A stretch of 42,448 bases of DNA from Paracholeplasma morum (GTDB taxonomy: Bacteria > Bacillota_I > Bacilli_A > Acholeplasmatales > UBA5453): positions 1-42,448 of the forward strand of contig NZ_JAFBBG010000014.1 in the NCBI RefSeq assembly GCF_016907055.1, written 5' to 3'. The position numbers were made by a program, and so were the translations under genes. Shown in pieces: positions 24,379-36,397 of the stretch. The stretch's first letter is position 1. Every line of letters begins with the position of its first letter. Under the pieces are notes generated by a model. The model saw nothing but the letters and a program-made list of their open reading frames with translations, was not told where the DNA came from and made no database searches.

Positions 24379-24406
24379 AGAGTTAAAGCAGGTGGGGACA
24401 TTGACT

Positions 24407-26407
24407 TTGAATGATTTTATTAACGTCAGTATTGAGCTAATTAACAACGCGATTATTTTGTTGGCCGTTGTGTTTCTGTATACAGCTACAGACTACGACA
24501 CAGAAACCAAATCTTTGGGTAAAAAAAGCCTTGTTGGGGTTCTTTTAGGACTTTCAGTCATATTCGTTATGAGCAATCCTTGGGAGCTTACAACAGGGTT
24601 ATTTTTTGATTCTAGAAGTATTCTTTATGTAATTACTGCACAGTTTTTTGGATGGATACCAACTTTGATTAGTATGTCTATAGGTATGGGATATCGTATC
24701 TATGTCGGTGGAACAGGGGTTTACTCAGGCGTGCTGACGATTATTTTTTCAAGTGCTGTAGGGATTATATTTAGATACACAAAGCTTAAAGAGCATTTTA
24801 GTAAGTCCTATTTATCCTATTATGCGATGGGGTTATTCACACATATTCTTACCCTACTAGCGTTTTTCGCGCTTGATAATCCACTTTCAATCATTAGATC
24901 GACAATCATTCCTTACTTGGTCGTATACCCGATTATCACCATGCTTATTGGTATCGCAATTGATAATCAACGTCATAGACTAGACTTAAACATCTTAATC
25001 GAAAAACAACGTACACTTCTTAAAGCATCATTAGACTCAACGACAACGATGGAGATGTATGCGCTAGATCAGAATATTTGTTACTTGAACTTTAATGAGT
25101 TTCACAAAAATCAAATGGAATTGTTTTATGGCGTAAAGATTAAAGAAGGCGACGACTTCTTGATAAACATCAGAGAACCTAAAATGCGCCTAAGACTTCA
25201 ACAAAACATTCAAAAGACGCTTAAAGGTGAAGTGGTCATCGACTCAAGTGAAGTTGAAGACACTCCGGGAAAGTTCTTAGAAGAAAGATTTTCGCCTATT
25301 TATTATCAAGGATCGATTGTCGGTTGTATGGTTTTCTCAAGCGAAATCACAGACCGCAAAAAGTATGAAGCATCCATTTTATACCTAAGCTACAATGATG
25401 CCTTAACTGGTCTTTATAATAGAAGATATTATCAAGAAAAGATTTTATCCATTGACTCTGAAAAGAATCAACCAATCTCCGTTGTCATCTGTGATATTAA
25501 CGGACTAAAAATCATGAACGATGCTTTCGGTCATGACGCAGGTGACGAACTCCTGAAAGAAGTATCCTTTCAACTGAAACAAACATTCCAAACCAAAGGA
25601 TTCGTTTGTCGTACTGGTGGTGATGAGTTTGCAGCTATCCTCTCCAATACCACATACGAACAAGCCTCCTTTATGGCAGACAAACTGAAACAATCTTTAG
25701 AAAAGAAAAACATTCGTGGCATGATTGTCTCCGTGTCATTTGGGATTGCTACTAAGCAGCAAGACGAACCTATTGAGGTTGCGTTAAGAACAGCTGAAGA
25801 AGCGATGTATAAAAACAAGCTCTTCGAAATATCCAGTCACCGAAATGAATCGATTAAAACGATTCTCAATACACTATATGAAAAAAATCCAAGAGAACAC
25901 AAACACTCAAAAAGAGTATCTGAACTGTGTATTTTAATGGGTAAAAAACTAGGCTTTAAAAATGATGATCTTAATCAGCTAAAAGCGATATCCAATCTTC
26001 ATGACATTGGAAAGATTGCCATTGATGATTCGATTTTGAATAAACCAGGTAAACTCACAGAAGACGAGTGGGAAATCATCAAACGCCATCCAGAGATTGG
26101 TTATAGAATCATTTCAACCTCGCCTGAATATGCAGAGATTGCCAATGACATTTTATCTCACCATGAGAAATACGATGGCACAGGCTATCCTCGTGGCCTT
26201 AAAGGTGAAAATATCCCAATTCGTGCGAGAATTATCGCGATTGCGGATGCCTTTGATGCCATGGTCTCAAGAAGACCTTATAGAGAACCACGTTCGATAG
26301 AAGATGCTAAAAAAGAAATCCTAAGATGTTCAGGCACACAATTTGATCCTAAACTTGTGAAGATATTCTTAGATATTCTTGAGAAAAATCCAAGTGTAAT
26401 AGAATAA
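24407..26407 (+). CDS. Membrane sensor with GGDEF and HD-GYP domains
   Basis: The 666-residue protein has four parts. Residues 1-185 are six membrane segments of the 5TM-5TMR_LYT type, with the marks FFDSRS and RIYVGGTGVYSG. A PAS-like domain follows (about 190-320). A GGDEF domain (about 325-475) has an intact RTGGDEF near residue 403 but no visible RxxD inhibitory site. The C-terminal HD-GYP domain (about 490-660) has HDIGK (about 531), HHEKYDGTGYP (about 584) and the full metal set. It can in principle both make and degrade cyclic di-GMP. The start is uncertain: TTG 24407 follows AGGTGGGG by 9 bases; TTG 24401 and GTG 24392 are alternatives. Confidence 0.9.
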   Translation: MNDFINVSIELINNAIILLAVVFLYTATDYDTETKSLGKKSLVGVLLGLSVIFVMSNPWELTTGLFFDSRSILYVITAQFFGWIPTLISMSIGMGYRIYVGGTGVYSGVLTIIFSSAVGIIFRYTKLKEHFSKSYLSYYAMGLFTHILTLLAFFALDNPLSIIRSTIIPYLVVYPIITMLIGIAIDNQRHRLDLNILIEKQRTLLKASLDSTTTMEMYALDQNICYLNFNEFHKNQMELFYGVKIKEGDDFLINIREPKMRLRLQQNIQKTLKGEVVIDSSEVEDTPGKFLEERFSPIYYQGSIVGCMVFSSEITDRKKYEASILYLSYNDALTGLYNRRYYQEKILSIDSEKNQPISVVICDINGLKIMNDAFGHDAGDELLKEVSFQLKQTFQTKGFVCRTGGDEFAAILSNTTYEQASFMADKLKQSLEKKNIRGMIVSVSFGIATKQQDEPIEVALRTAEEAMYKNKLFEISSHRNESIKTILNTLYEKNPREHKHSKRVSELCILMGKKLGFKNDDLNQLKAISNLHDIGKIAIDDSILNKPGKLTEDEWEIIKRHPEIGYRIISTSPEYAEIANDILSHHEKYDGTGYPRGLKGENIPIRARIIAIADAFDAMVSRRPYREPRSIEDAKKEILRCSGTQFDPKLVKIFLDILEKNPSVIE

Positions 26408-26445: not shown

Positions 26446-28044
26446 TTAACTTAAGTCAATGAGTTTTGTATAGTTTGATAGAGGTCTATGTGAAATAAAT
26501 AGGATGGTTTTATCCTTTAACTTGTGAAGGTTATCGATTATTGCTTTCTCAAGTGCCGGATCAAGTGCACTTGTGACCTCATCTAAAAGTAAGATCTTAG
26601 AATCTCTAAGCAGTGCTCTTGCGATCGAAAGTCGTTGAAGTTGTCCAATAGAAAGGCCTGCATTTTCGGTTAGAATTGTATGATAACCTTGTGGTTTTGT
26701 ATTAATCTCTTCATCGATTAGACACAACCTACAAACTCTTTTAACTTCTTCGATCGGTATATTTTTTCCAAGGGTTAAATTCCTGTAAATAGTATCTGAT
26801 AAGATGTAAGGCGTTTGTGGGACGTAACTAAAGTATTTTCTCGTTGTCTCATTGATATTCATATAGTTGTCTTTAGCATAAAACCTAATATTACCATTAT
26901 AAGGTCTGATGAATCCCAACAACAGCCTAAATAATGTGGTCTTGCCTAAACCAGAGTCTCCTTTAATCCAGACAAAGTCGCCTTTATTGATTTCTAGATC
27001 AAGTTTATCTAATACCCATTTTTCATCATACCTGAAGGATACATCCTTAAATACAATCCGTTCAAATTCAAAATCGGTTTCTTTTTTTGAACCTTCTTGT
27101 TGAATGTCTTTGATAAAGCTTAGATGGGTAATCGATTGAATCATTTGATAATACTTAGGAAGTATGTTCGATAATCCAGAGAATGGGGATTGAATGTTTT
27201 GGACTAATTGAATGATTGCGGTAAGCGCACCAATTGAAAGAAGTCCAAGACTGATTTGATAAGCACCGAAGATGATTGAAAATGCGTATCCAAATCCGAA
27301 GAATAGGTTTAATCCAAAACTGGAAGCCACGGAAATCTTCGTTTTACTCATGCGGGTCTTAATTAGTCTGTTGGTGTTTTCATTCAAGTTATTGAGTGTG
27401 AAATCTTCCCCCTCAAAAGCTTTAATCACCTCTAAATGGGATAAAGAATCCGTCATTTCTGTATACATGATGTTTTCAGCCTCAATAGCTTTTTTATGTG
27501 TCTTTTGAAGTGGTTTCTTTAAGAACCTTGAAATTCCAAGTAGAATGAGCCCTAGACCTAAGAAGAGTAATGCGAATATTGGGCTTAATAAATAAAGCAC
27601 AACAAAAGCTAATAGGAATCTTAAAATATAGAAGATCAATTTAGGAATTAAGTCTAACAACCCTTCTGTAACAATACTCAAATCACTCTTAAACAAATGA
27701 GTTAGACTGCTAGAATGCGTTTTTTTCACCTGTTGGTAAGCCCCATTTAATAAAAGGTGAAAATAGTCTTGTTGGATCGCACCATATAGCTTATTTTGAT
27801 AATAGACTTTTAAGTAGTGATTAACCATTTGACCAACTAATTGTAGGAGAAGTAGTCCAACTAGAATACTTGCATATAAAGGAAAATCCTTGTGATTGAT
27901 GATGGCATAGTCAATGGTGATTTTCGAATAATAGGCGAATAAAACGGCAGTTGAAGATAGAACCACTGAAAGTATCGATAAAATAACTAACGGAAATCGT
28001 AGATATTTTTGGTAAGGTAAACTAAATCCTTTTAATGTATTCAT
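26446..28044 (-). CDS. ABC exporter, fused membrane and ATPase domains
   Basis: The 532-residue half-transporter has a six-helix type I exporter domain (about residues 15-310) and an ATPase domain (about 335-532). The ATPase has Walker A GDSGLGKTT (about 360), Q-loop 'YVPQTPYIL', signature LSIGQLQR, Walker B 'ILLLDEVTSALD' and switch His in 'FISHR'. No C39 peptidase domain is present, so it cannot trim a double-Gly leader itself. It is divergent from, and 104 bases away from, the kinase-PqqD operon, which suggests it exports the product of that locus. Ribosome site GGGAG upstream of ATG 28044. As an alternative it might be a general lipid or drug exporter. Confidence 0.88.
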   Translation of the reverse strand: MNTLKGFSLPYQKYLRFPLVILSILSVVLSSTAVLFAYYSKITIDYAIINHKDFPLYASILVGLLLLQLVGQMVNHYLKVYYQNKLYGAIQQDYFHLLLNGAYQQVKKTHSSSLTHLFKSDLSIVTEGLLDLIPKLIFYILRFLLAFVVLYLLSPIFALLFLGLGLILLGISRFLKKPLQKTHKKAIEAENIMYTEMTDSLSHLEVIKAFEGEDFTLNNLNENTNRLIKTRMSKTKISVASSFGLNLFFGFGYAFSIIFGAYQISLGLLSIGALTAIIQLVQNIQSPFSGLSNILPKYYQMIQSITHLSFIKDIQQEGSKKETDFEFERIVFKDVSFRYDEKWVLDKLDLEINKGDFVWIKGDSGLGKTTLFRLLLGFIRPYNGNIRFYAKDNYMNINETTRKYFSYVPQTPYILSDTIYRNLTLGKNIPIEEVKRVCRLCLIDEEINTKPQGYHTILTENAGLSIGQLQRLSIARALLRDSKILLLDEVTSALDPALEKAIIDNLHKLKDKTILFISHRPLSNYTKLIDLS

Positions 28045-28116
28045 AAGTGACGCTCCCTAATTTATAGTTATTTTATCATATGTTTGCTATTTTTTTACAT
28101 ATGATATGCGCTTACA

Positions 28117-28125
28117 TGGTATAAT
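28117..28125 (+). promoter_or_regulatory. Extended -10 promoter of the kinase-PqqD operon
   Basis: TGGTATAAT with perfect TATAAT at 28120-28125, 23 bases before the GTG start. Confidence 0.75.
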
Positions 28126-28148
28126 ATATTAAAAGACGGGGTATCAAC

Positions 28149-29243
28149 GTGAGTACTTATTCAATCGCTGGAATTAATATTCTATTAAAACCTATTCATA
28201 AGGATTATTTTTCTATGACTTTAGAGCCCTATAAGTCTAATGGGCCTTTTGATTATGCAATAACATCAAAGCTTGTTGATGTGATTAAACCTATTGACAT
28301 GACGCCAATTATGCATGAAAAGTATCGCTTTTTTTATGAAGTCGATGGGGTTTCTATCATGCAAGTCAAACATCAATCTGGATTGATTAAGTATGAATTA
28401 AGAACCTCTAAAGACTATAAGACTCAAGCATTATTCTTTGTCAAAGATCTTATTAAGGATATGGAATCTATTGAGTACATTTTATACTCTATGTCATTTT
28501 TAGAGGTTGCAATGCGCGAAGGATTTTTACCTATTCATGCATCAAGCCTTGTATTAAATGATGAGGTTATTTTGTTTTCTGCGCCCTCCAAAACAGGTAA
28601 AAGTACGCATGTTAGATACTATCAGGAAGTATTTCCTCACGCCTTTAACCTGAATGACGATAAACCCCTAATCAAAGATGGTTATGTCTATGGGACGCCA
28701 TTTTCTGGTAAGTCGAAACACAACCTCAATGCCAAATACCCACTTAAAGCGCTTTGTTTTATTAAACAAGGAGATACCACGAGCATCTCAAGACTATCTA
28801 AAGATGAAAGTACCATTTATCTACTTAAGAATATGTTAAGACCTAGTCAGGAATCTATATGGGATAAAATGATTCCAATCATGAATGAGGTATTAACGGT
28901 TGATACGTATTTAGCTTACTTAACAAATGAACAAAAAAGTGTATTTACCACTTATCATGGATTTTATAGGGAGAAAATTATGAAACTAAAAGATGGTTTT
29001 AAATTAAAAGAAATAGGTTCAAAAATCATGGTTTTACCAACTGATAATGAAGCCCTAAACTTTAATGGGATTATGACACTTAATCAAAGTGGAAAGGTCT
29101 TATTTGAGGCGCTAGAAAGTGATCAAACCATCGATTCATTAGTAACCATCCTAACGAATCGTTATGAGATTTCCGAAGAAGAAGCGTTAAAAGACGTGGT
29201 GTTATTCATCGAGACGCTTAAAAAACATAACGTTCTATTATGA
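28149..29243 (+). CDS. HprK-like serine kinase fused to a PqqD (RRE-type) domain
   Basis: The 364-residue protein has two recognisable parts. Residues 115-270 resemble the HPr kinase-like peptide kinases found in some RiPP (lasso) clusters: 'FLPIHASSL' with His130, P-loop APSKTGKST (145-153), and DD at 170-171 in 'NLNDDKPLI'. Residues about 278-364 form a PqqD domain ('LKDGFKLKEIGSKIMVLP...MTLNQSGKVLFEAL...DVVLFIETLKKHNVLL'), which in other systems binds the leader peptide and guides the modifying enzyme. A single protein thus joins leader recognition and phosphorylation. GTG start at 28149. Stop overlaps the next ATG (ATGA). The N-terminal 110 residues match nothing I know. Confidence 0.85.
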   Translation: MSTYSIAGINILLKPIHKDYFSMTLEPYKSNGPFDYAITSKLVDVIKPIDMTPIMHEKYRFFYEVDGVSIMQVKHQSGLIKYELRTSKDYKTQALFFVKDLIKDMESIEYILYSMSFLEVAMREGFLPIHASSLVLNDEVILFSAPSKTGKSTHVRYYQEVFPHAFNLNDDKPLIKDGYVYGTPFSGKSKHNLNAKYPLKALCFIKQGDTTSISRLSKDESTIYLLKNMLRPSQESIWDKMIPIMNEVLTVDTYLAYLTNEQKSVFTTYHGFYREKIMKLKDGFKLKEIGSKIMVLPTDNEALNFNGIMTLNQSGKVLFEALESDQTIDSLVTILTNRYEISEEEALKDVVLFIETLKKHNVLL

Positions 29244-29644
29244 AACTAAACTCAGAGACGTTATTACCCATTGTCATTGAAGAACTCAATCTAGGGAAAA
29301 AAGTTACATTCAAAGTAAAAGGACATTCCATGTGGCCATTTTTTAAGGACTCTATTACAGACGTCACATTAAAGAAATCTACATATAGAAAATGGGATGT
29401 TGTCTTGGCTAAATACCAAAATCAATTTGTATTACACCGCATTATAAAAGTATATGATGATGGTTTTATCTTAAGAGGCGATGGTGCGGTTCGTAAAGAG
29501 TTTGTCTTAATTGAAAACGTCTATGGGAAAGTCGTTTTTTATAAGACTAAAAAACAAATCATTGAATCTAGCAAGTTTAACCGACTTAAGGTAAAACTCT
29601 GGGTTCTAAACCCATTTAGACGTCTACTATTGAGGTTCAAATAA
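29240..29644 (+). CDS. S24/S26-type peptidase, signal-peptidase-like
   Basis: The 134-residue protein has the S26 fold marks: 'VKGHSMWPFF' with nucleophile Ser30, 'KWDVVLAKY' and 'FVLHRIIKV' with His66, and 'ILRGDGA' with Asp81. The His in place of Lys is the SipW/ER-type signal-peptidase arrangement. Unlike ordinary signal peptidases it has no N-terminal membrane helix; a hydrophobic/basic C-terminal stretch (115-134) could attach it peripherally. Translation is coupled to both neighbours (ATGA and TAATG overlaps). In this locus it is the obvious candidate to remove a leader from a modified peptide before export; that is inference. Confidence 0.82.
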   Translation: MKLNSETLLPIVIEELNLGKKVTFKVKGHSMWPFFKDSITDVTLKKSTYRKWDVVLAKYQNQFVLHRIIKVYDDGFILRGDGAVRKEFVLIENVYGKVVFYKTKKQIIESSKFNRLKVKLWVLNPFRRLLLRFK

Positions 29645-30795
29645 TGGATACGATTTTAAAGGCAACCCGTTATGCCCTAGAAAAAAAGTTAATCGATTTT
29701 AAAATTGAAGATGAAAAGTCTTTTGTCATATCATTAAGAGAAAATGGGTTATCTGGCTTAATCTTTACCTATATTCAAGATGGCCTAGGCTCATCCAAAC
29801 TCGATCAATATAAAACTCAAATTCTTTATGACTATGCTTTAAGAGATGAAAAACAACTAAAGTTAATTGATAAATTAAGAGAGATCTTAAATGAAAACGC
29901 GTTTAAACATGTCTTCTTAAAAGGGTCTAGACTTAAATCATTGTATGAGAAAAGCTATATGAGAGGCATGGGGGATATTGACATTCTAGTTGAGTCTTTT
30001 GAAATGAAGCGTATTGAAGCTGTCTTGTCAAATCACGGCTTTAAAGTAGAACAAAAAAGCCCAGCACATGATGCCTATAGTTACGAGGGGTTAGAAGTAG
30101 AGATTCACCCTACGTTAATGAATGATTTTAACCCTAAATACGAACTCTTTAAAGATGCGTTTAGTCACGCAATCCAAAAAGAGTTATACGAGTATGTGTT
30201 TGAACCAAATTTTGAAACGTTATATTTGATGTATCATTTAGCAAAACACTTCGAATCCAGTGGTGTCGGTTTAAGAAGCATTTTAGATATAGGATTATAC
30301 GTTAAGGCTTATGCGAGTATACTCGATAAAAGCACTTTAGAATCCTATTTAACAAGTATGTCTATGACGCGATTTTATAATGTAATGCTCGAATTAAATA
30401 AACGATATTTTGGGATTGAATCTGATCTTCAAATAGGCGCATTTACATTCACTGAAGAAGAGTATACTAATGTTTCAAATTACATAATGACTTCTGGAAT
30501 ACATGGCAGTGGACACAGTTTTAACCAGATGGCACCTAGACTTGTGAACACACAAAACAAGAAACAATCCAAATGGTTTGTTTTAGTAAAAGTTTTGTTT
30601 CCAAGTTATAAGAACATGAGAATTATGCATCCCAAGTTAAAAACAAGATTACTTTTGCCTGTTTTCTACTTGATTAGGTTTTTCAATCTAACGATCAAAA
30701 GAGGTAAGGATTCAAGAATGAAACTTAGACAATTAGAGGATAGTTCTAAAAACAAAGAGGCAGTCAAACAAGTGTTTAAGACGCTGGGATTATAA
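29644..30795 (+). CDS. Nucleotidyltransferase family protein (NTP_transf_5 type)
   Basis: The 383-residue protein has the NTP_transf_5 (PF14907-like) core: 'VFLKGSRLKSLYEKSYMRGMGDIDILV', with KGS at 93-95 and the metal-binding Asp111 and Asp113 in GDID, then 'EVEIHPTL' carrying a third acidic residue. Members of this family occur next to peptide kinases in some RiPP clusters. They could transfer a nucleotidyl or sugar-phosphate group onto a phosphorylated peptide. Its ATG overlaps the previous stop (TAATG). It ends the operon at 30795; no strong terminator is seen, and a new promoter lies about 60 bases on. Substrate unproven. Confidence 0.82.
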   Translation: MDTILKATRYALEKKLIDFKIEDEKSFVISLRENGLSGLIFTYIQDGLGSSKLDQYKTQILYDYALRDEKQLKLIDKLREILNENAFKHVFLKGSRLKSLYEKSYMRGMGDIDILVESFEMKRIEAVLSNHGFKVEQKSPAHDAYSYEGLEVEIHPTLMNDFNPKYELFKDAFSHAIQKELYEYVFEPNFETLYLMYHLAKHFESSGVGLRSILDIGLYVKAYASILDKSTLESYLTSMSMTRFYNVMLELNKRYFGIESDLQIGAFTFTEEEYTNVSNYIMTSGIHGSGHSFNQMAPRLVNTQNKKQSKWFVLVKVLFPSYKNMRIMHPKLKTRLLLPVFYLIRFFNLTIKRGKDSRMKLRQLEDSSKNKEAVKQVFKTLGL

Positions 30796-30856
30796 AAAAA
30801 ATAGGAATTATTAGATAGCGTTTACATAAATTTTACTAAATCATGACAATGTAGCA

Positions 30857-30885
30857 TTGATATATGTATATATATGTGATACTAT
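30857..30885 (+). promoter_or_regulatory. Promoter of the 43-codon peptide gene and nuclease
   Basis: TTGATA (30857-30862), 17-base spacer ending in TGA, TACTAT (30880-30885). The start of transcription would be about 30892, giving a leader of about 29 bases. A separate promoter lets the peptide gene be expressed apart from the modification genes. Confidence 0.8.
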
Positions 30886-30920
30886 CTATATAAAATATTA
30901 GATACATGGGAGGTATTTAA

Positions 30921-31052
30921 ATGTTTGAAAAAGAGAAGTACGAAAAACCCACGGTAGAAGTGGTAGAATTTGAACTATCAGATTCAATTGCCGAAAGTGG
31001 ACTTAATGCAAAAGGTCTATTTGGGTTTGAAGAGATTTGGGGGGACGAATAA
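30921..31052 (+). CDS. 43-residue putative RiPP-like precursor peptide
   Basis: A short gene with a strong ribosome site (GGGAGG, 30908-30913) 7 bases before its ATG. The peptide begins MFEKEKYEKPTVEVVEF; Y7-x-x-P10-x-V12 resembles the YxxPxL leader motif read by PqqD-like domains in lasso-type RiPPs. Residues 13-26 are acidic with three Ser (20, 22, 26), possible targets of the HprK-like kinase. After Gly27 a small, Gly- and aromatic-rich tail follows (LNAKGLFGFEEIWGDE), a plausible core. It directly follows the kinase-PqqD, peptidase and nucleotidyltransferase operon. Its TAA overlaps the ATG of the secreted nuclease by one base, so those two are translated together. It is not annotated by length-based callers. 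Confidence 0.75.
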   Translation: MFEKEKYEKPTVEVVEFELSDSIAESGLNAKGLFGFEEIWGDE

Positions 31053-32546
31053 TGAAAAAAACTACTATTAGTAATTAGCTTAATCTTAGCATTATTCGGT
31101 TCAAGTGTTATCGTTAATGCGGCAGAACTAGATTCAGTTACAGTTGCTATTTCTTCATCAGTAGACGATGGAGCAATCATAAATGCTGATCCGCAGACTA
31201 AAAATGTGGGTGATACCCTTAGTTTCAACGCATCAACACTTGATGGTGTTAACCAATTTGCGTTCTGGGTTATTAATGGATTCGTAAGAACTGACCTAGC
31301 TGCAAACCTTAGTGTTCGTGTTCAATCTTCGATGAGTGTATTTGGTTTATTCCATACAGAAGGTAAACATGCTGTCCTATTTGTCGATTCTAATGGGAAA
31401 TTAATTGATCAAGTTAGTGTATTAGACAATGGTACTGCTGGTGCCCCTGATGTTGAGGGTTATACAAAACCTGGTGGATTGCTGGTAGATTCAGTTAATC
31501 CTTGGAAATCATTAGAAGGTGAAACTTCATTGGAGAACATCGATTCTTCAAGAGTGTATGTATTACAATATACTGAAGCAACTGGTGACATTAACATTCT
31601 TATTGAGGGTGGTCTTGTAGGATCCATTGATGCAGTTAGGAACCAAGTAGTTGTCGCGGTTGCAGCTAATTCAAGCACATTCACACATTGGGCAGATGAA
31701 GAAGGAAACGTGTTATCATACAAACCAACTTATGCATTCACTGCACTTGAAGATACTAAGTTATTTGCAAAAACAACTGCAGTTACACCAACTTCATTTG
31801 TCTCTATGAAAGATTTGACAGGTATTCGTGATGGATATGAATCATATATGGGTCGCGTTGAACTTCAAGGCGATGATTATTTGGTAGAGTATGGATTTAT
31901 CTATTCAGACACAACAGAAGATATCACACTCGATACAACTGGTGTCGTTATAGCAAAATCTAACGTAGCTAATGCACAAACAAAAGAGTTTTTAATGAGC
32001 TTTGTTTCTGAACACCATGTTACAACAAGAGCTTATGCTATAGTAGATACTGGCACAGAAATAGTAACCATCTATAGTGACTTAATCGTTAAGAATCCTG
32101 TAGAAGTTGAACCGGTAGTTTACACGGCTACTATAGATACAAGTGGATCTTATGGTAGTAATATTGCAGATGGAGTTATTTCCGCTGATCGTTTAGCCAT
32201 TACTAATCCAGGTACTTCGAGTATTAGCGTAAGTTTTCGTAAAAATTCCTCAAGCACAACCTCGATTTTTAATAATAGTGGTGGGCAAATTAGATTGTAT
32301 AATGGCTCTTCTAGTAATGGAGGACAACTTACGATTAGTTTATCATCTGAGTATATTTTAACGAGCATTACAGTTGAAACTGACACAAACACTGGTTATT
32401 CAATAAATGGCAGTAGTTCTATTAGTTCAAAAAACCAAACAACACAGTTAACTGAAGCATCATCAAGTTCAGTTGTAATTAAGAATGTTGGATCAGGTCA
32501 AGTTAGAATAGAATTAATTACTATAACATATACTTTAAAAAAATAG
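31052..32546 (+). CDS. Secreted endonuclease I, N-terminal part (frame broken twice)
   Basis: The ATG at 31052 (overlapping the peptide gene's stop) reads only MKKTTISN before a stop. Shifting by one base in the A7 run 31055-31061 gives a textbook signal peptide (KLLLVISLILALFGSSVIVNA, written here only as a motif: positive start, hydrophobic core, ANA-type cleavage) and then an open frame to TAG 32544-32546. The protein contains repeated beta-rich regions, with Ig-like and sandwich-like stretches, the last (about 32110-32530) resembling the domain that precedes endonuclease I in other secreted nucleases. A GTG at 31206 is the first in-frame start without a shift and would lack the signal. 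The frame continues in the next entry if the A7 run at 32537-32543 had one more A. Confidence 0.75.
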
Positions 32547-32605
32547 CCCCTACAACAGATGAAACACCACCACAGATAACAAGTTATTACCCTAGTAAGT
32601 TATCT

Positions 32606-33595
32606 ATGGTTGTAGGGGATGATATAATCATTCCATCTTGTAATGCAATAGATAATAAAGATCCCTACCCTGAATGTGGTTATAGAGGTACTTTCGATAA
32701 CACAAGGGTAGGGTCTTATACAATTACATTTTTTGCAGCAGATGAGATGGGTAATCAATCAACCTTAGTATTAACCTATATCGTAACTGAAGAAGAAATT
32801 GTTCAACCTTTAGACCCAAATATTCCAAGTGGATATTATGCAAATGCAGAAGGAAAAAATGGCAGTCAATTATTTACTTCATTAAAAACAATTATTTCCG
32901 GTCATACGATATATTCATATTCAAGTACGAGTGATAAACTTAGTTATATAGATGCTGACTTAAATAATCCATCAAAGGTATACACGATTTATACAGGAAC
33001 TGCTGTTAACGGCACTTGGGATAGTGGCAATACTTGGAATAAGGAACACGTTTGGCCTCAATCTTCTTATGATGAGGCATCGCCTATGGTATCTGATATG
33101 CACCAGTTAAGAGCTGCAATTCCAAATGTTAACTCTCAAAGGAGTAATTATTACTTTAATACAACAAGTAGTACTTCTGGAAGTTACCATTATGAAAGTA
33201 GTAAGTTCTATCCAGGTGATGATCATAGAGGTGACGTTGCGAGAATATTGCTATATATGGCAACTAGGTATTATGATGAGAGATTAAGACTTACAAAAGA
33301 TAACTCAGGTTCTACAACAAGAAATGCAAGAGAGATTGGTGATATTGATCAACTTCTTGCTTGGCATATTGCTGACCCAGTGGATGAATTTGAAGTCCAA
33401 AGGAATAATAGAATTTATGGATATCAAAAAAATCGAAATCCATATATCGATAGACCTGAATTCTATGAATCTGTATATTATTACTTATTAGATATTGCTG
33501 GAAGCATACGATCGAATAGTTATAAAGAAACAATAGAGATTTACCAAACGATTCAAGTCCTATATGTACCTGAATATCAAAAAATAGAACTATAG
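32606..33595 (+). CDS. Secreted endonuclease I, C-terminal part (frame broken from N part)
   Basis: In this frame, open from about 32540, an Ig-like DUF5011-type domain ('DNKDPYPECGYRG...GSYTITFFAADEMGNQS') is followed by an Endonuclease_1 (PF04231-type) domain: 'TWNKEHVWPQSSY' with the catalytic His, 'SDMHQLRAAIPNVNSQRSNYYF' and 'PGDDHRGDVARILLYMATRY'. These enzymes cut DNA outside the cell, giving nucleotides for salvage. The ATG at 32606 is only the first Met and does not have a ribosome site, so the part is probably made from the upstream gene by frameshift, or the stop is an error. From ATG 31052 to this stop is exactly 848 codons, so the two shifts cancel. Confidence 0.8.
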   Translation: MVVGDDIIIPSCNAIDNKDPYPECGYRGTFDNTRVGSYTITFFAADEMGNQSTLVLTYIVTEEEIVQPLDPNIPSGYYANAEGKNGSQLFTSLKTIISGHTIYSYSSTSDKLSYIDADLNNPSKVYTIYTGTAVNGTWDSGNTWNKEHVWPQSSYDEASPMVSDMHQLRAAIPNVNSQRSNYYFNTTSSTSGSYHYESSKFYPGDDHRGDVARILLYMATRYYDERLRLTKDNSGSTTRNAREIGDIDQLLAWHIADPVDEFEVQRNNRIYGYQKNRNPYIDRPEFYESVYYYLLDIAGSIRSNSYKETIEIYQTIQVLYVPEYQKIEL

Positions 33596-33598
33596 ATA

Positions 33599-33640
33599 TT
33601 AGGCACAACCTCTCTTGGTTGTGCCTTCAGTTTAGTTTTA
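33599..33640 (+). terminator. Terminator after the nuclease gene
   Basis: Perfect 10-bp stem aggcacaacc / ggttgtgcct with loop tctctt, followed by an imperfect T-rich stretch. Confidence 0.8.
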
Positions 33641-33659
33641 TTAGTAAAGGAGGATTAGT

Positions 33660-34697
33660 TTGAAGAAATTTACACTTATATTAGCGCTTATACTAAGCTT
33701 AGCTGGGTGTAGTAAAAAACAAGTAATATATGATCCACCTAAGGATTTAAGATATCATGAAGACACTTTTAAGGTTTCTTGGACAAGTGTCAAAGATGCG
33801 ATTTCCTATGAAGTATCGATTAATGATGAAACGTATCACACAACCGATACGTATTATGATATGAGTACATTTGATACAGGCATATATGCAGTCAAAGTAA
33901 AAACTATATTTAAAGACAACAGTTCAAGATATAGTTTGGCTATCAATATTACGATTATTAAGACGGTTGCTGTTTCGGTATCTTTACAAGGGGATACATT
34001 AACATTTGAATCAGACACAAAAGACATTATCTATCAAGTTACGAATTATGATTATCTAGGTAACGTAATAGGTAAAGACACTGTAGATAAAAACACATAC
34101 AAGATTAATTCAGATATTGGGTTTAAACGCTTGGATGTTAAAGGGTTTTTAAACAATTTAGTCATATATGATAAAACCCTTAGAGTTAATGTAGATGGGT
34201 ATACGTATTTTAGTGGAGATGATTACCTATTAATTAGCCAAGTAATAGGTAATGAGGTTTACTTAAATGGTCTTTTGTTAGCAAGTTCAAACTATATTGA
34301 TGATGAGAACGGGTTATCTTTAACCAAAGCTTATTTGGAAACACTAGATTATGGTAGTTATGAGTTAAGAGTAGAAGGCGAAGATACCTATTTGACCACC
34401 TTAGTTCTTTCTGAAACACAAAAACCAAAACTCACCTCAAATCCTTCGGTAATTTATGAAGGGTCTGATGTCACATTCGAGTTTGAACTATATACTGGAT
34501 CATTCAGAGGTGTTTATACCAATCCAACTTTAGAAGAAGGAGATTATTCCTTCACAGATGGTGTATTAACAATCAATAAGTCGTATATTGATGCGGTAGT
34601 TCTTAATGAACCAGACCGCAAACAAATATTTTTCCAATATGAACTGACTAATAATGAAGTGACTGTAATTGGATATTTAACCATTCGCTTGAGCTAA
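33660..34697 (+). CDS. Surface lipoprotein with FN3-like and X2-like domains
   Basis: The start is TTG at 33660, seven bases after the near-perfect site AAAGGAGG (33646-33653). The signal ends in a lipobox LAGC with Cys17. The mature 329-residue protein looks beta-rich: an FN3-like domain (about 24-105), a middle beta region, an X2-like Ig domain (about 180-250: 'DYLLISQVIGNEVYLNG...LSLTKAYLE') and a second X2-like domain at the end ('NPSVIYEGSDVTFEFEL...GDYSFTDGVLTINKSYI'). X2 domains bind or space carbohydrate- or surface-associated modules. No enzyme motif is visible. It follows the secreted nuclease and may act with it at the cell surface, but its own ribosome site and upstream terminator suggest separate expression. 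Confidence 0.78.
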   Translation: MKKFTLILALILSLAGCSKKQVIYDPPKDLRYHEDTFKVSWTSVKDAISYEVSINDETYHTTDTYYDMSTFDTGIYAVKVKTIFKDNSSRYSLAINITIIKTVAVSVSLQGDTLTFESDTKDIIYQVTNYDYLGNVIGKDTVDKNTYKINSDIGFKRLDVKGFLNNLVIYDKTLRVNVDGYTYFSGDDYLLISQVIGNEVYLNGLLLASSNYIDDENGLSLTKAYLETLDYGSYELRVEGEDTYLTTLVLSETQKPKLTSNPSVIYEGSDVTFEFELYTGSFRGVYTNPTLEEGDYSFTDGVLTINKSYIDAVVLNEPDRKQIFFQYELTNNEVTVIGYLTIRLS

Positions 34698-34762: not shown

Positions 34763-36397
34763 ATGTTTAAAAAGTATTTTCACCGTGTATCAACCGAGTT
34801 GAACCGTGATAAAAGTCCGCTCAAGAACTCACTATTCATCATTACACAATACCTTATAATTGGGATCCTGTGGATATTTTTTTCAGACCTCTTTTTGAAA
34901 TTATTTGTTACAGATATCGAAAAACTAGATGAACTCCAAACGCTAAAAGGCATTTTATATGTATTAATCACAGGATTGATGTTTTATTTGATCATTAAAA
35001 AACGTATGGATTTATACGCAGACACAATTGACGAATTAAGAATATCCATTACTGAACTTGAAAAAACCAACCACACTTTATCCGTACTTGAGTCACAGCT
35101 CTATGATTTAGCTTATTATGATGAACTTACAGGGTTATTATCGAGAAACATGATTGCCCGTAAAGTACTTGAACATATTGAACATAGCCCAAATGATATT
35201 CTTGGGTTTGTATACCTCGATATTGATGATTTTAAACATGTTAATGAACTGAAAGGTCATGATGTAGGAGACCAATTATTAATTCAAATTGCCAATGAAC
35301 TTAAAGAGATTGCTGGAGAGCCACATATTGTTGGAAGATTAGGTGGGGATGAGTTCGTTGTCATATTAAAGAATAACCTTCACAGAGACTTATTACTAGA
35401 TATGATTAAGTCTCATGCATCGAAAATTCATAAATCATTCATTTTGGATGGGGATGAATACTTTGTCAGTGTCTCGGCAGGTGTAGCCTCTTATCCACAC
35501 GATGGGAAAGACTATAAAACGCTTTTAAAGTGCGCAGATATGGCTTTAAGTATTGCAAAACAAAGGGGTAAAAACCAAATCATCCTATATAGTGAAGTGT
35601 TTGGTTCTGAACTCCAAAAACAAACAGATTTATCCAACCTATTAAATCATTCGATTACAAAAAAGGAATTGGTTGTTTATTATCAACCGGTCTATAATCT
35701 TGAAAGTAATAAGGTTAGATCCGTAGAAGCTTTGATTAGATGGAACCATCCGACGAGAGGGCTAATTCCACCTATGGAATTTATCCCGGTTGCTGAAAGA
35801 ACTGGCTTTATTAAAGACCTTACTTGGTTTGTATTAAAAGAGTCATTATCTCAAATTAGAGCTTGGGAAAAAGAAGGCTATGACATGATGATTTCAGTTA
35901 ATCTATCGGCAAGAGTCCTAAACGATGCCTCATTCTTATCTAAGTTAAAAAGAGTTGTTGCGGAAGATAAGATTCTTACCCATAAATGCATATTTGAAAT
36001 TACTGAATCCTCAATATTAGAACATATTGAAGAATCCATCATAACCCTTAATGAATTAAGAGCTATGGGCTTTAAACTGTCTCTAGATGACTTTGGGACA
36101 GGGTATTCATCCCTAACTTACCTTCAACGGTTACCGCTTCATGTTGTAAAAATAGACCGAGGTTTCACAAGACAAGTTAAGTTTGATAATGATCAAAATC
36201 CCCTAATCAAATATACGATAGAACTCGCACATGCGTTAGGACTTAAAGTGGTTGTCGAAGGGGTAGAAGAAGTATATCAACTTAAAGCACTAAAATCGAT
36301 GAATGCGGACTTCATTCAAGGGTATCATATCGCAAGACCGAGCCTTCCAGATGAATTAGACAAAACCCTATTCAATAAAACAGAAAACCCTTCTTAA
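34763..36397 (+). CDS. GGDEF-EAL cyclic-di-GMP enzyme
   Basis: The 544-residue protein has two N-terminal membrane helices (about residues 22-45 and 60-78), a short coiled stretch, a GGDEF domain (about 115-280) with intact RLGGDEF near residue 193, and an EAL domain (about 290-535). The EAL catalytic set is complete: VEALIRW (about 320), 'EITESS', 'LDDFGTGYSSL' (about 442), 'KIDRGF', 'VVEGVEE' and 'QGYHIARP'. The RxxD inhibitory site is not seen. It can therefore both synthesise and hydrolyse cyclic di-GMP, the balance depending on signals at its membrane part. ATG 34763 follows GTGGGGTG. Single gene between two terminators. Confidence 0.95.
   Translation: MFKKYFHRVSTELNRDKSPLKNSLFIITQYLIIGILWIFFSDLFLKLFVTDIEKLDELQTLKGILYVLITGLMFYLIIKKRMDLYADTIDELRISITELEKTNHTLSVLESQLYDLAYYDELTGLLSRNMIARKVLEHIEHSPNDILGFVYLDIDDFKHVNELKGHDVGDQLLIQIANELKEIAGEPHIVGRLGGDEFVVILKNNLHRDLLLDMIKSHASKIHKSFILDGDEYFVSVSAGVASYPHDGKDYKTLLKCADMALSIAKQRGKNQIILYSEVFGSELQKQTDLSNLLNHSITKKELVVYYQPVYNLESNKVRSVEALIRWNHPTRGLIPPMEFIPVAERTGFIKDLTWFVLKESLSQIRAWEKEGYDMMISVNLSARVLNDASFLSKLKRVVAEDKILTHKCIFEITESSILEHIEESIITLNELRAMGFKLSLDDFGTGYSSLTYLQRLPLHVVKIDRGFTRQVKFDNDQNPLIKYTIELAHALGLKVVVEGVEEVYQLKALKSMNADFIQGYHIARPSLPDELDKTLFNKTENPS

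Follow-up and report, generated by a model that had tools for sequence, protein, structure and literature searches.

A probable linear-phosphopeptide gene cluster in Paracholeplasma morum, coupled to a surface-protein gene with a probable -1 frameshift into an Endonuclease I tail

Two groups of ribosomally synthesized and post-translationally modified peptides (RiPPs) come closest to the locus analyzed here. Linear polyphosphorylated peptides (LPP) were described by Popov et al. in May 2026 from the lpp cluster of Paenibacillus alginolyticus, which encodes a kinase, a RiPP recognition element (RRE), a signal peptidase I (SpI)-like protease, a nucleoside triphosphate (NTP) transferase, an MsbA-like exporter and a precursor with a YxxP motif, and which has no cyclase (PMC13381572). 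Core Ser3 was demonstrated to be phosphorylated multiple times in an LppK-dependent manner, cleavage by LppS was found to depend on the RRE, no activity of LppN was seen in B. subtilis, and the biological role is given as unknown (PMC13381572). In the phosphorylated lasso peptides the C-terminal serine is phosphorylated by the kinase, and in pseudomycoidin an enzyme of the NTP_transf_5 type adds hexoses onto the phosphate (PMC8498205). Here, a 42,448-nucleotide stretch of Paracholeplasma morum DNA (contig NZ_JAFBBG010000014.1, forward strand; the window) was analyzed, of which the region 26446-34697 carries a divergent ABC exporter, an overlapping three-gene operon, a 43-codon peptide gene, a secreted-protein gene, a nuclease domain and a lipoprotein gene. 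Judged by its sequence, the locus is an LPP-type variant that would work as LPP does, with a chemistry of a class already known. The least expected part is the surface nuclease, which is apparently reached by frameshifting and is linked to the precursor gene.

The resemblance to LPP extends over the HprK-like kinase, the PqqD/RRE domain, the SipW-like SpI peptidase, the NTP transferase, the MsbA-like exporter, the YxxPxV leader and the lack of a macrolactam cyclase. The initial annotation had listed an ABC exporter, a kinase-PqqD fusion, an S26-type peptidase, an NTP_transf_5 protein and a 43-codon peptide, and all were recovered by hidden Markov model (HMM) or sequence analysis. The trio that it described as overlapping does so by 4 nt between the kinase-RRE and protease genes and by 1 nt between the protease and NTP_transf_5 genes.

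The fusion is encoded by the open reading frame (ORF) 28149-29243 (+). Its HprK-like kinase part (residues 1-277; 28149-28980, (+)) contains the Walker A sequence APSKTGKST at residues 145-153 and NDDK at residues 169-172, and the residues of both motifs are invariant among 14 aligned kinase sequences. No Pfam match above cut-off was obtained for this part, and phmmer searches of the PDB with the kinase and the protease gave chance matches or none. A single-sequence kinase search of the genome contigs returned nothing and an alignment-based search did find homologues; with tblastn, matches in plasmids were weak and partial at most. The AlphaFold model of the fusion (pLDDT 80, pTM 0.65) was compared by Foldseek, resulting in matches of the kinase part to PEP carboxykinases (1e-6) and HPr kinase 1knx (7.5e-4), and of the C-terminal part to the lasso RREs TbiB1 and TfuB1 and to PqqD. 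Among the genomes searched, a fusion of kinase and RRE was seen only in Paracholeplasma, and elsewhere the two are separate genes; in LPP, too, the RRE is discrete. Paracholeplasma vituli (L053) is of the same genus as the window. A different fusion within the same gene set was seen in some Clostridia, where the kinase and the SpI-like protease form one protein (L104, 8758-9924; L130, 8821-9963).

The PqqD/RRE domain lies C-terminal to the kinase (28989-29243, (+); PqqD 1.6e-11, residues 295-362), and its profile matches LppB 9x8z (E=1.9e-5), PbaB1 9x90 and TfuB1. In LppB, N33 and D70 form the leader hydrogen bonds and Y60 and F74 the pocket; paeninodin-type RREs have Gly at the position of N33, and PbaB1 has Gln at that of D70 (PMC13381572). 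The corresponding residues of the window RRE are N312, Y339, D349 and F353, so that the leader-binding residues of LppB are conserved. Because this residue set is also found in many lasso and PQQ RREs, it excludes the paeninodin type and does not prove membership of LPP.

The same domain bears on a second reading, in which the locus is a lasso cluster whose B2 and cyclase genes were lost or relocated. A YxxP leader, an RRE, an HprK kinase, an NTP transferase and an exporter are common to phosphorylated lasso clusters (PMC8498205), and with the paeninodin and pseudomycoidin clusters the locus shares the HprK-like kinase, the NTP transferase, the RRE and the ABC exporter. It differs from them in the leader motif, which has Tyr in place of Trp, and in the RRE, which has Asn and Asp in place of Gly and Gln. 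Moreover, searches of the whole genome (99.2% complete) gave zero matches both for lasso B2 (PF13471) and for the asparagine-synthetase-like cyclase (PF00733), the latter search being positive in 11 of 14 control genomes. The absence of lasso B2/C enzymes claimed in the initial annotation thus holds genome-wide. As neither gene is present, a lasso origin was rejected; the reading is mostly refuted already and very improbable.

The protease gene (LppS-like SpI/SipW type; 29240-29644, (+)) gave its closest match with archaeal-type signal peptidase I (TIGR02228, 1.1e-5, 25 bits), and its profile matches signal peptidase I and LexA chains; the PF00717 score is sub-threshold. Ser30, His66 and Asp81 are invariant in 13 aligned sequences, His replacing the lysine of the bacterial type. 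The LppN-like protein of NTP_transf_5 nucleotidyltransferase fold (29644-30795, (+); PF14907, 2.8e-40) keeps the KG...GDID...E/H residues, with K93, G94, G110, D111, D113, E153 and H155 invariant. Nucleotidyl transfer, proposed earlier as its activity, finds no backing in the described relatives, where the pseudomycoidin enzyme attaches hexoses (PMC8498205) and LppN was inactive in B. subtilis.

The precursor gene (43 amino acids; 30921-31052, (+)) was delimited by family alignment and a comparison of 44 peptides. It is preceded by a strong Shine-Dalgarno sequence, GGGAGG, at 30908-30913. The promoter that had been assigned to it corresponds to a consensus-like site at 30857-30885 (+), TTGATA-17-TACTAT with TG before the -10 (extended -10); across the region, however, such sites are no commoner than expected by chance. 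The window peptide has the leader motif YEKPTVEVVEFELSDSIA and the core ESGLNAKGLFGFEEIWGDE, and the family motif reads YxxPx[IV]EVxEFxxxxSIA/xS, the slash marking the predicted cut (alignment Y..P.[IV]E[IV].EF....SIA.S). Ala or Thr at Y+17 is found in 21/22 peptides of Acholeplasmatales and in 10/10 of other Bacilli, and Ser at Y+19 in the same proportions (21/22 and 10/10); the Clostridia peptides have looser forms of the motif. Relatives of the peptide occur in 26 of 160 genomes of the order and also in other Bacilli. The kinase is present in 24 of the 26 peptide-bearing genomes vs 30 of the 134 others (p=1.4e-11). Neighborhoods with kinase, RRE and protease are widespread across Clostridia and Bacilli; the small peptide is kept in the conserved neighborhoods of relatives, and the prediction that it might be missing there, which would have counted against a peptide pathway, was not borne out.

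The site SIA/xS fits the -3/-1 rule of signal peptidases, and the leader is predicted to be cut after Ala24 (SIA/ES), with Ser26, the conserved serine two residues past this site, as the likely phosphorylation site. The arrangement parallels FET/AQS of LppA but is shifted by two residues and differs in sequence, for which reason both sites are to be read as predictions. The LPP precursor follows YxxPxVLxHQxIxFET/xxS; the window family shares YxxPxV and the later Ser and has EVxEFxxxxSIAxS instead. The LPP core genes, a leader peptidase with Ser-His-Asp, and the RRE residues equivalent to N33/D70 and Y60/F74 were all found. The published precursor motif (Px9Fx[T/A], FET type) was also looked for and was absent from the neighborhoods checked (20 Bacilli loci), and the locus was therefore not filed as a full LPP member. 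Other differences from LPP are the coupling of the precursor gene to a surface-protein gene and the absence of capsule genes within the flanks examined.

The locus was initially proposed to represent a RiPP class not described before, in which a kinase and nucleotidylation supply the chemistry. The precursor motif, the kinase-RRE fusion and the surface-protein linkage are indeed missing from the text of the LPP paper, and the FET-type precursor is lacking as noted above. On the other hand, the gene set has already been published as LPP (PMC13381572), and the enzyme set, the RRE-leader logic and the protease type are all as in LPP, where multi-phosphorylation was demonstrated. We regard a new class as quite improbable. 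The broader proposal of a RiPP-like pathway, in which a leader is recognized and trimmed, a kinase acts and the product is exported, is supported.

The best explanation, which we consider likely, is an LPP-type pathway with a linear phosphopeptide as its product. The RRE domain would bind the YxxPxV motif of the 43-residue precursor, the fused HprK-like kinase would phosphorylate a core serine, most likely Ser26, and the SipW-type protease would cut off the leader after Ala24. The NTP_transf_5 protein would probably add a further group onto the phosphate, comparable to the hexoses of pseudomycoidin; export of the product would fall to the divergent ABC transporter. The gene set, the motifs and the conserved residues were observed in the DNA; the enzymatic steps we infer from LPP and paeninodin. 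Three points weigh against the LPP-type pathway. The kinase half matches named families weakly by sequence, and its whole-chain Foldseek TM scores are low. Over the stretch comparable with crystal-structure RREs (~54 residues), identity of the window RRE to LppB (12/54) is not above that to PbaB1 (13/54). Finally, the precursor lacks the HQxIxFET part of LPP, which makes cleavage at SIA/xS a guess. With these reservations, the locus extends a months-old RiPP family to the wall-less Acholeplasmatales and other Bacilli and adds a distinct, searchable precursor family.

Directly behind the peptide gene lies the secreted surface-protein gene (31052-32546, (+)), the start of which overlaps the peptide stop (TAATG). 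In Acholeplasmatales, a secreted-protein gene directly follows the peptide gene, often with overlapping stop and start, and the same order was found in the other Bacilli examined. According to Pfam, the surface proteins carry List_Bact repeats, LTD and Ig-like domains. This linkage bears on a further alternative, in which the modified peptide is a small regulator or tag that is retained by the cell, internally or at its surface, and either controls the adjoining surface protein or is attached to it. Essentially every peptide gene of Acholeplasmatales and other Bacilli directly precedes a gene for a signal-peptide protein (spacing -25 to +15 nt), and the C-terminal EExWG of the peptide is conserved within the order rather than hypervariable, as would suit such a role. 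That the locus has an exporter of its own as well as a leader protease, however, favors an exported peptide, and in Clostridia the peptide is mostly found beside the kinase, without such a surface-protein neighbor. We consider a regulator or tag unlikely and retain an exported phosphopeptide.

The nuclease had been annotated as a secreted protein. The nuclease domain was confirmed, but the ORF 32606-33595 lacks a signal peptide and would continue, in the -1 frame, the secreted protein encoded at 31052-32546. The nuclease frame is open through the stop of the surface-protein gene, and the extension (32508-33595, (+)) comprises a linker, an Ig-like domain and an Endonuclease I domain (Endonuclease_1, 6.4e-41). 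A candidate -1 slippery site, ACT TTA AAA AAA TAG (T_TTA_AAA, A_AAA_AAA), ends in the stop codon (32532-32546, (+)). It is followed by a candidate frameshift-stimulating stem (32547-32618, (+)), in which CCCCTACAAC (32547-32556) pairs with GTTGTAGGGG (32609-32618) across a 52-nt loop; none of 300 shuffled sequences gave as good a stem.

For comparison, 18 distinct Acholeplasmatales junctions at which an Endonuclease I frame overlaps the surface-protein gene were collected. The nuclease is in the -1 frame at all 18, and likewise at 4 junctions from other Bacilli. Some 20 other Endonuclease I genes of the order served as an internal control; each of these is a single ORF, and most encode a signal peptide or lipobox of their own. 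In the relative L043, surface protein and nuclease are joined as one uninterrupted ORF. Most junctions have no -1-frame start codon near the stop, and a linker of the Val-Thr-Pro type is conserved across it. By -1-frame codon position, substitutions between relatives were distributed 157/159/255, mostly at the third position (the pairs are not independent). C_CCN or G_GGN was found within the last two codons at 11/18 junctions vs 10/358 control ORF ends (p=2e-11; junctions from related loci are only partly independent), and Z_ZZN within the last four codons at 14/18 junctions vs 47% of controls (p=0.014). Among the four junctions from other Bacilli, three have A_AAC_CCG.

An inverted repeat, CCCCTAC...GTAGGGG, directly follows the stop, and a stem of 7-12 bp is present at 17/18 junctions of the order; the 4 others have a stem as well. 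The stem arms covary, cognate arms pairing better than swapped ones (p=0.0003; 14 distinct arm pairs, L142 excluded), although against shuffles the individual stems are not all better. In L040 and L047, a perfect hairpin, GGGGGAG-TAA-CTCCCCC, has the stop of the surface-protein gene in its loop and would, like a switch, form in competition with the conserved stem downstream.

These features resemble bacterial -1 frameshifting in IS3/IS1, dnaX and copA in the overlapping -1 ORF, in a candidate Z_ZZN or X_XXZ_ZZN site at most junctions, and in the stem ~6-10 nt downstream (PMC4066793, PMC5009743). They differ in that a chromosomal secreted protein gains a nuclease tail, and in the long loop (36-63 nt), which itself encodes the linker and the start of the Ig-like domain. 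No frameshifted secreted nuclease of this kind was found in the papers searched. It is likely that the surface-protein family is extended by programmed -1 frameshifting into an Ig-like and Endonuclease I tail, which would yield a short secreted form and a long nuclease form.

Some findings count against this interpretation. Known bacterial -1 sites have the form Z_ZZN or X_XXZ_ZZN, of which a lone C_CCG performs weakly in E. coli (PMC4066793); 4/18 junctions have no recognized slippery codon in the last four codons, and frameshifting is accordingly called probable and not proven. The stem of L142 is imperfect. In this assembly, moreover, the surface-protein frame, which is open in relatives, is broken at an A7 tract (31055-31061) just past the start ATG, so that the strain may not make the protein. 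With one A fewer at this position, the frame encodes a plausible signal peptide (31052-31206), and intact homologues are present in relatives; the break may be an assembly error, phase variation, or decay to a pseudogene.

Alternatively, the nuclease ORF could be independent or degenerate, the -1 frame being an indel or sequencing artifact or the nuclease being translated by re-initiation. The window junction does fall on an A7 tract, where indels typically arise, and the second A7 near the start of the surface-protein gene is broken. Nevertheless, the -1 arrangement recurs at 22 junctions in several orders, mostly in non-homopolymer sequence, constraint on the frame reaches as far as the stop, most junctions lack an in-frame start near it, and the tail has no signal peptide even though Endonuclease I paralogues have one. 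An independent or degenerate nuclease ORF is hence improbable. Re-initiation was rejected because start codons near the stop are mostly absent and the frame is conserved; translational bypassing was rejected because the stretch it would skip shows conservation at the protein level.

Two features go further than LPP as published: in Acholeplasmatales and other Bacilli the precursor gene almost always stands directly before a surface-protein gene, and where a nuclease ORF overlaps the latter, it lies in the -1 frame. The fixed neighbor, a surface protein with a nuclease tail, is a first concrete lead to a role for LPP peptides. If frameshifting at the junction is confirmed, -1 recoding would determine, in a widely conserved chromosomal setting, if the secreted protein bears a nuclease or not. 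That peptide and surface nuclease may act in one process is suggested solely by the tight linkage of their genes. We tentatively propose, as a possibility that falls short of being likely, that in Bacilli they form a conserved two-part unit of a phospho-modified peptide and a surface protein, the secreted nuclease form of which is dosed by -1 frameshifting, co-expressed for one purpose. Such a purpose could be nucleic-acid scavenging or attack on neighbors, with the peptide as a signal or tag. No description of a peptide/surface-nuclease unit was found in the papers searched.

The remaining genes lie at the borders of the locus. The divergent LppD/MsbA-like ABC exporter (26446-28044, (-); Pfam ABC_membrane 2.3e-27, ABC_tran 1e-23) has no C39 peptidase domain that could be seen, and a divergent homologue adjoins the kinase in L031, L032, L033, L034, L036, L039, L042 and L047. 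The lipoprotein gene at the other end (33660-34697, (+); LPAM_1 weak) is conserved in this position in relatives, with homologues in L031, L033, L034, L035, L039, L040, L042, L043 and L047. The locus is flanked by genes for a GGDEF/HD-GYP protein (24392-26407) and a GGDEF/EAL protein (34763-36397), both with counterparts in relatives, which makes control of the locus by cyclic-di-GMP possible.

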